In this document: one piece after another, positions 5,409-10,546 of the stretch
How the letters are laid out: each line of letters begins with the position of its first letter
How positions within the stretch are numbered: the first letter of the stretch is position 1
Assembly (NCBI GenBank): GCA_027310795.1
Contig: DAIDAD010000011.1
Span: 1-10,632 of the forward strand
Origin: Candidatus Micrarchaeaceae archaeon
GTDB lineage: Archaea > Micrarchaeota > Micrarchaeia > Micrarchaeales > CABMGC01
Direction: 5' to 3'
Length of the DNA stretch: 10,632 nucleotides
The notes under the pieces: model-generated
Databases searched by the model: none
What the model saw: the letters and a program-made list of their open reading frames with translations, nothing else
What the model was told of the DNA's origin: nothing
Program-made: the position numbers and the translations under genes

Positions 5409-6245
5409 ATGAAGCTTTCTTGGATGATAGGAGGAGCGCAGGGGCTTGGCGTAGACACATCCGCAAACCTTTTTGGTTCAGCTGTTGCAAAAGCCGGCTA
5501 TTACATATACGGCAACAGGGAGTACTATTCAAACATCAAAGGCAGGCACAGTTATTTCAACGTGGTGATGAGCAACAGGCCTCCTAGGAGCATATCAGAA
5601 AAGGTCAACATACTTGTGGCTTTCGATTCTGAGACCGTGTTCCAGCACTTTACCGGCGTAACTGATTTTCTGATATATGACAAGAACTCGGAGATTGTAA
5701 AGGCAGAAACAGTAAGGTCGATGGAGAATGAGATTACTGAAAAGGTTGTAAAGGAGCTTGAAGGCGCAGGGTTCGGCACCAGCATTGCCGATGTTGTACA
5801 GTACTTGAAAAGGAAGAATGTCACATGCATACCTGTTAATTATGTAGACGGCATAAACGCGATAATAAACCAGTTGAAGATACCGCCACCTGTTGCAGGG
5901 AAGGCGAAGAACATAATAGGGATAGGCGCGTCATATTCGCTGCTCGGCCTGAAAAAGGATTTCCTTGACAATGCAATAAAGGAATCTTTCGGCAAGAACG
6001 ACCTTTTCTACAGGATGAACATGCTTGCCGCAGAAGCTGGCTTGAAATATGCAAAGAGCAATTACAATATGGAAGAGCTGCAGCTGAATAGCGAAAGGGT
6101 GCAGGTTGACGGCAATACATTGTCTGCGATAGGCAAGATTGCAGGAGGACTGCGCTTCCAGTCATATTATCCGATAACGCCAGCATCTGACGAGAGCACA
6201 TACATTGAGGCAAACCAGGTGCTGCAGGTAAATTCAGGCTCATGA
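5409..6245 (+). CDS. korA: 2-oxoacid:ferredoxin oxidoreductase gamma-alpha subunit, N-terminal part (ends at in-frame TGA)
   Basis: First 278 residues of the fused gamma-alpha chain of a Sulfolobus-type 2-oxoacid:ferredoxin oxidoreductase, which oxidatively decarboxylates 2-oxoacids to acyl-CoA and reduces ferredoxin. The gamma domain is clear from the start (IGGAQGLGVDTSANLF, then GYYIYGNREYYSNIKGRHSY) and runs to about residue 185. The alpha chain's first, pyrimidine-binding domain begins near residue 235 and includes the YPITP motif (residues 254-258). The frame then meets TGA at 6243, while the same frame continues with the rest of alpha. The break is therefore inside a domain, not at the gamma/alpha boundary. 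Substrate preference (pyruvate, 2-oxoglutarate or both) is not readable, so the symbol is tentative. No clear ribosome-binding site precedes the ATG. Confidence 0.85.
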   Translation: MKLSWMIGGAQGLGVDTSANLFGSAVAKAGYYIYGNREYYSNIKGRHSYFNVVMSNRPPRSISEKVNILVAFDSETVFQHFTGVTDFLIYDKNSEIVKAETVRSMENEITEKVVKELEGAGFGTSIADVVQYLKRKNVTCIPVNYVDGINAIINQLKIPPPVAGKAKNIIGIGASYSLLGLKKDFLDNAIKESFGKNDLFYRMNMLAAEAGLKYAKSNYNMEELQLNSERVQVDGNTLSAIGKIAGGLRFQSYYPITPASDESTYIEANQVLQVNSGS

Positions 6246-6260
6246 ACAGGCAGCGGGGGC

Positions 6261-8184
<1,924 letters not shown>

Positions 8185-8380: not shown

Positions 8381-8455
8381 GGGTCCGTAACTCAGTTTGG
8401 CTAGAGTGGAAGGCTTTTAACCTTTAAGTCGAGGGTTCAAATCCCTCCGGGCCCA
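8381..8455 (+). tRNA. tRNA-Lys (anticodon UUU)
   Basis: The cloverleaf folds by hand. Acceptor GGGTCCG (8381-8387) pairs with CGGGCCC (8448-8454) with one G-U pair; A8455 is the discriminator. D stem ACTC/GAGT. Anticodon stem GAAGG/CCTTT encloses CTTTTAA, with TTT at 8416-8418. The variable loop is 5 bases. T stem GAGGG/CCCTC encloses TTCAAAT. No intron and no encoded CCA. Confidence 0.95.
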
Positions 8456-8495
8456 CTATGTTCTTCTAGAGTCAAAACAGGGCTCAGTTACAGAG

Positions 8496-10097: not shown

Positions 10098-10099
10098 TT

Positions 10100-10546
10100 C
10101 TACACCTTTTCAGCTTTCTCTATCACTCGTGCCATGTTCGACTTTGTAGTGACCGGTATCGGCACTGCAACGTCCATAAGCTCGACTGTAATCTCATCCT
10201 TCTGCGGGTCTGTATTTATTACCTTTGCCTTGTAGCCCTTGAACGGGCCTGCAAAGAATTCAACGAGGTCGTTCGGAGATATGTCCTGTGACTGCTGCTT
10301 TGCCGATAGTATCTTGCTTATCTCTTCATCGGAAAGCGGCTTCGGCAGCATGCCCTTTACATGCGGTTCATTGAGTATCAGCTCCCTGCATGCCACTTCG
10401 TCCCTCGCCTCTACTATTATGTAGCCGCGCATCCCCTGCGGCATTATTATTGAGAATACGCCGTTGTCCTTGCCTTTTGACTTGCTTTGCAGTATGTCTG
10501 CCGTTATCTTCTCCTGGCTTGCCGTTACTCTTACTATGAAATACAT
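10100..10546 (-). CDS. spt5: transcription elongation factor Spt5 (NusG homologue)
   Basis: A 148-aa archaeal Spt5, which binds the RNA polymerase clamp with Spt4 to aid processivity. The NGN domain spans about residues 1-85 (MYFIVRVTASQEK, then GMRGYIIVEA and KGMLPKPLSDEE). A KOW domain follows from about 92 (ISPNDLVEFFAGPFKGYKAKV) to the C-terminus. The frame extends to ATG 10603, but family length, the conserved MYFIVR start and a TATA box placed for a transcript beginning at the ATG all favour 10546. SecE, its common upstream partner in archaea, is not seen in the 86 bases before it. Confidence 0.95.
   Translation of the reverse strand: MYFIVRVTASQEKITADILQSKSKGKDNGVFSIIMPQGMRGYIIVEARDEVACRELILNEPHVKGMLPKPLSDEEISKILSAKQQSQDISPNDLVEFFAGPFKGYKAKVINTDPQKDEITVELMDVAVPIPVTTKSNMARVIEKAEKV

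Follow-up and report, generated by a model that had tools for sequence, protein, structure and literature searches.

An in-frame TGA in a micrarchaeal 2-oxoacid:ferredoxin oxidoreductase gene, best read as a consensus error

Does an in-frame stop codon in a conserved enzyme gene of a Candidatus Micrarchaeaceae archaeon mark a split protein, a recoded codon, a mutation or an error in the assembled sequence? The window analyzed here, a stretch of 10,632 nucleotides, is one of the 117 contigs (C20) of a genome, G000, of 603,184 bases that is 73% complete. On its plus strand, a TGA at positions 6243 to 6245 forms codon 279 of a frame opened by the ATG at 5409. When this TGA was read as X, the frame stayed open to a second TGA at 7287 to 7289, and its full length, from 5409 to 7289, codes for the gamma/alpha fusion subunit of a 2-oxoacid:ferredoxin oxidoreductase of the archaeal type, broken by the single TGA. 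The features of the locus are as follows.

5409..6245, plus strand: alpha subunit, first piece, 278 aa that stop at the TGA, with a gamma-type POR domain and the beginning of POR_N; PF01558, 92 bits; NF041170 positions 1-280
6228..6260, plus strand: variable Gly/Ser loop holding the stop (VNSGS-stop-TGSGG); exceeds the loop of five congeners by 3 codons, its length differing between relatives
6243..6245, plus strand: in-frame TGA; P0122, a protein otherwise the same, has glycine here
6246..7289, plus strand: alpha subunit, second piece, with the remainder of POR_N and core domain II, running to the normal TGA; PF01855 from profile position 38; PF17147; NF041170 positions 289-636
7276..8184, plus strand: intact beta subunit of this enzyme; NF041171, 476 bits (cut-off 423); identical protein P0240 on three contigs

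Scanned apart, the two pieces scored 332 and 546 bits against NF041170, each below the curated cut-off of 800 bits. Residues 1 to 275 of the first piece correspond to positions 1 to 280 of that model and the second piece to positions 289 to 636 (of 636). The second piece begins at position 38 of the POR_N profile (PF01855) and continues into core domain II (PF17147), so that POR, POR_N and core domain II lie across the two pieces in the order of the model. Since the halves are collinear on NF041170, there is no frameshift, as the preliminary description of this DNA had stated from the unchanged frame and the family likeness on both sides of the TGA. Judged from the sequence, chance does not account for a single frame holding two such long stretches of the same family. 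Elsewhere in the window, tRNA-Pro (TGG) and tRNA-Lys (TTT) genes were observed at 1182 to 1254 and 8381 to 8456, respectively, and positions 239 to 1129 encode a protein with two DUF2666 (PF10869) stretches. The open reading frame at 1198 to 2091 is listed with TTG 1198 as its start, a codon inside the tRNA-Pro gene, and its true start must therefore lie further on.

The structure of the Sulfolobus tokodaii enzyme is reportedly the subject of a published paper. That enzyme (NF041170; PDB entries 5b46, 5b47 and 5b48) has the same domain order as the alpha subunit of the window. A profile of 20 relatives, which included the read-through window protein, aligned with the solved 5b46 and 5b48 chains at 618 and 617 of 618 positions, with a difference in length between the solved chains and the profile in the loop that bears the stop. 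Compared with the archaeal alpha subunit described by NF041170, the contig of the window differs only by the TGA. The stop was placed by the preliminary description in a Gly/Ser loop (NSGS-stop-TGSGG) after the YPITP motif, within the pyrimidine-binding domain, and the entry of the second piece into POR_N at position 38 agrees with that placement. At the DNA level, the loop has 3 codons more than its counterpart in five congeners, which is made up of sense codons alone. Loop length after YPITP varies in general among the relatives, being 3 codons shorter in those five congeners and 2 residues longer in the protein P0123. No tandem array was found over the loop, no terminator-like site was found between 6150 and 6400 (one promoter-like match lay on the minus strand), and viral contigs contained no match to a 26-base pattern taken from the stop site.

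When protein records were searched with the read-through protein, the best 120 of 7,997 scored candidates included P0122, a protein of 621 aa present on two contigs, of which the longer has 26,612 bases. P0122 and the window protein agree at 620 of 621 aligned residues, and the sole difference is a glycine in P0122 at the site of the stop, the residue that had been guessed beforehand from the sequence. The beta subunit was recovered at 100% identity (P0240) with three contigs listed, the longest again of 26,612 bases, and the C-terminal fragment created by the stop (P0002) with one contig listed, whose 10,632 bases equal the length of the window. These counts agree with glycine on two contigs and the stop on a third, the numbers themselves suggesting that the same three contigs recur across the counts.

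We then compared the gene with those of related genomes. Within the genome of the window there was one match to the alpha-subunit protein. Matches were obtained in 39 of the 60 relatives searched, and none of the matches listed outside the genome of the window had an internal stop. All five congeners carry a full-length gene with no stop and 82 to 84% identity. In genome contigs, 27 related loci were found, a set from which records very near the genome of the window are possibly omitted. The TGA is thus not conserved, being absent from the five congeners and replaced by glycine in P0122; a look for a sense codon in close relatives had been proposed in advance, and this is what it returned. Values of pN against the five congeners were alike before and after the stop (0.100 to 0.120 and 0.089 to 0.111), with no sign in pN of decay past the stop; pS was near saturation, and dN/dS was therefore not used.

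In order to place the TGA among other breaks in the same assembly, 226,148 readable bases of G000 were surveyed against 495,254 readable bases of the congener G002, both being partial samples with overlaps removed; 18 of the 41 G000 stretches were mostly N and yielded nothing. Three of 112 well-matched G000 genes (39,935 aligned residues) were broken: those for the alpha subunit, the thermosome and a ParA-like ATPase. The thermosome gene (PF00118; L094, contig C37) has a frame change near position 5,612; it is whole in all five congeners and lies in two pieces in the genome of the window, where no other copy was detected. The gene for the ParA/MinD-like ATPase (PF10609, PF01656; L082, contig C25) contains an in-frame TAG at 10098 to 10100 on the minus strand, 63 bases from the contig end. 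All five congeners have glutamate at that site and no stop past the start methionine, the copies in G003 and G005 each having one TAG upstream of it. For both of these breaks, the comparison was with other species only. In the reverse survey, of 115 G000 genes against G002, no stop was found inside a gene.

With one possible exception, the remaining flagged sites were rejected as breaks. Inspection showed that flagged frame changes in L104 (G002) and L086 (G000) were overhangs at gene boundaries. The other stops flagged in G000 lay within the first 40 aligned residues, mostly before a methionine, or antisense to SufB (L082 near 2024); one, in L085, a possible break, fell at position 15 of 133 in a gapped alignment. 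Those flagged in G002 preceded a methionine, sat where the start matched poorly or were antisense to SufB. The SufB protein of G002 (L111, 14492 to 17212, minus strand) is about 907 aa long with an insert that we read from its sequence as intein-like, and the G000 SufB (L082 from about 1230) is without this insert.

A living cell is not expected to lose its chaperonin, and breaks at the edge of a contig are a typical product of assembly error. Therefore, errors in this assembly are likely to be the common cause of the three breaks, although three is a small number. Together with the match of P0122 at every residue but the glycine and the stop-free genes of the congeners, the two further broken conserved genes support the view that the TGA is probably a consensus error in an ordinary enzyme gene. 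The gene would then be that of an ordinary two-subunit archaeal 2-oxoacid:ferredoxin oxidoreductase, with the fused gamma-alpha subunit followed by beta, in which a sense codon, glycine in P0122, was read as TGA because the consensus of a fragmented metagenome assembly is wrong at this point. Under this interpretation, the TGA would have no mechanism of its own and the organism would most likely make one unbroken alpha chain. Nonsense and frameshift errors in metagenome-assembled genomes likewise appear as isolated breaks in conserved genes of fragmented genomes whose relatives are intact; the TGA here is a probable, not a proven, case.

Four options had been listed in the preliminary description, and two of them, an error and a recent nonsense mutation, still stand: the stop is private to the contig of the window, and the best reading is a consensus error, with a fresh mutation as the alternative. 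A nonsense mutation that is real and recent, carried by one strain of the population, would cut the alpha subunit short and probably leave the enzyme inactive in those cells. It is the less likely of the two but deserves serious weight, and a real low-frequency allele fits the data nearly as well as an error does. The TGA is one base from a glycine codon, and the rest of the gene is undecayed, with pN alike in both halves and P0122 otherwise the same, as expected of a very young mutation. However, the genome has two other breaks, one of them in the only thermosome gene detected, whose real loss would be hard to credit, and this points to errors. The preliminary description had also taken the intact key residues of the beta subunit to favor function. 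That argument does not hold for the copy with the stop, since neighboring genes would be equally spared by an error of one base or by a mutation of very recent date.

The other two options, a real split protein and programmed readthrough, found no support in the comparison with P0122 and the five stop-free congeners; because an otherwise identical protein on two contigs has glycine, the TGA most likely reflects neither a split protein nor special decoding. In a real split, translation would stop at the TGA and restart at the GTG at 6261 or 6267, 15 and 21 bases past it, and the two chains would assemble around a loop whose length varies among relatives. Termination-reinitiation in archaea is reportedly the subject of a paper. 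A split of this kind is nevertheless very improbable. P0122 is unbroken, so that a split common to independent copies of the species is not found, and no congener has one; the ATG overlapping the TGA lies in another frame, and the GTGs are valine codons in unbroken relatives, GTG itself occurring in three of the five congeners at 6261 and in one of five at 6267. Split genes have been reported for Nanoarchaeota, Micrarchaeota and other DPANN archaea, and there too, in the excerpt of PMC6349945, a DPANN gene reads as two pieces, which lends the split some support; as presented in that excerpt, the splits are a property of the species, whereas in the present case P0122, otherwise identical, is unbroken. 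Less probable still is that the TGA is subject to programmed readthrough or is recoded as glycine, selenocysteine or another residue. The sole support for this is the open frame on either side of the TGA, and against it stands the ordinary glycine of P0122. The one match to tRNA-Sec was below the cut-off and was called tRNA-Ser GCT by ARAGORN. No UCA anticodon, the kind that an opal suppressor would have, was present among the 16 readable of 23 tRNA matches in this 73% complete genome; the other seven were without a clear anticodon (L141, L145, L146, L148, L150 and C27, which matched without an ARAGORN call, and L144, with its anticodon unassigned). The RNA past the stop folds like its shuffles (z of -1.27, with 22 of 200 as good), and the other in-frame stop in the sample is TAG, not TGA.

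Should the TGA be real and expressed, it would be an uncommon chance to see a gene become split within a species. A gene caught at the origin of its split, with one alpha chain in some cells of a single micrarchaeal species and two in others, the first ended at the TGA, the second begun at GTG 6261 or 6267 and the pair held together around a surface loop, is, however, a long shot. With a consensus error as the preferred reading, the locus carries a caution for the DPANN archaea: a lone in-frame stop in a fragmented metagenome-assembled genome may mimic a split or recoded gene, and a single further copy of the protein suffices to make either unlikely.
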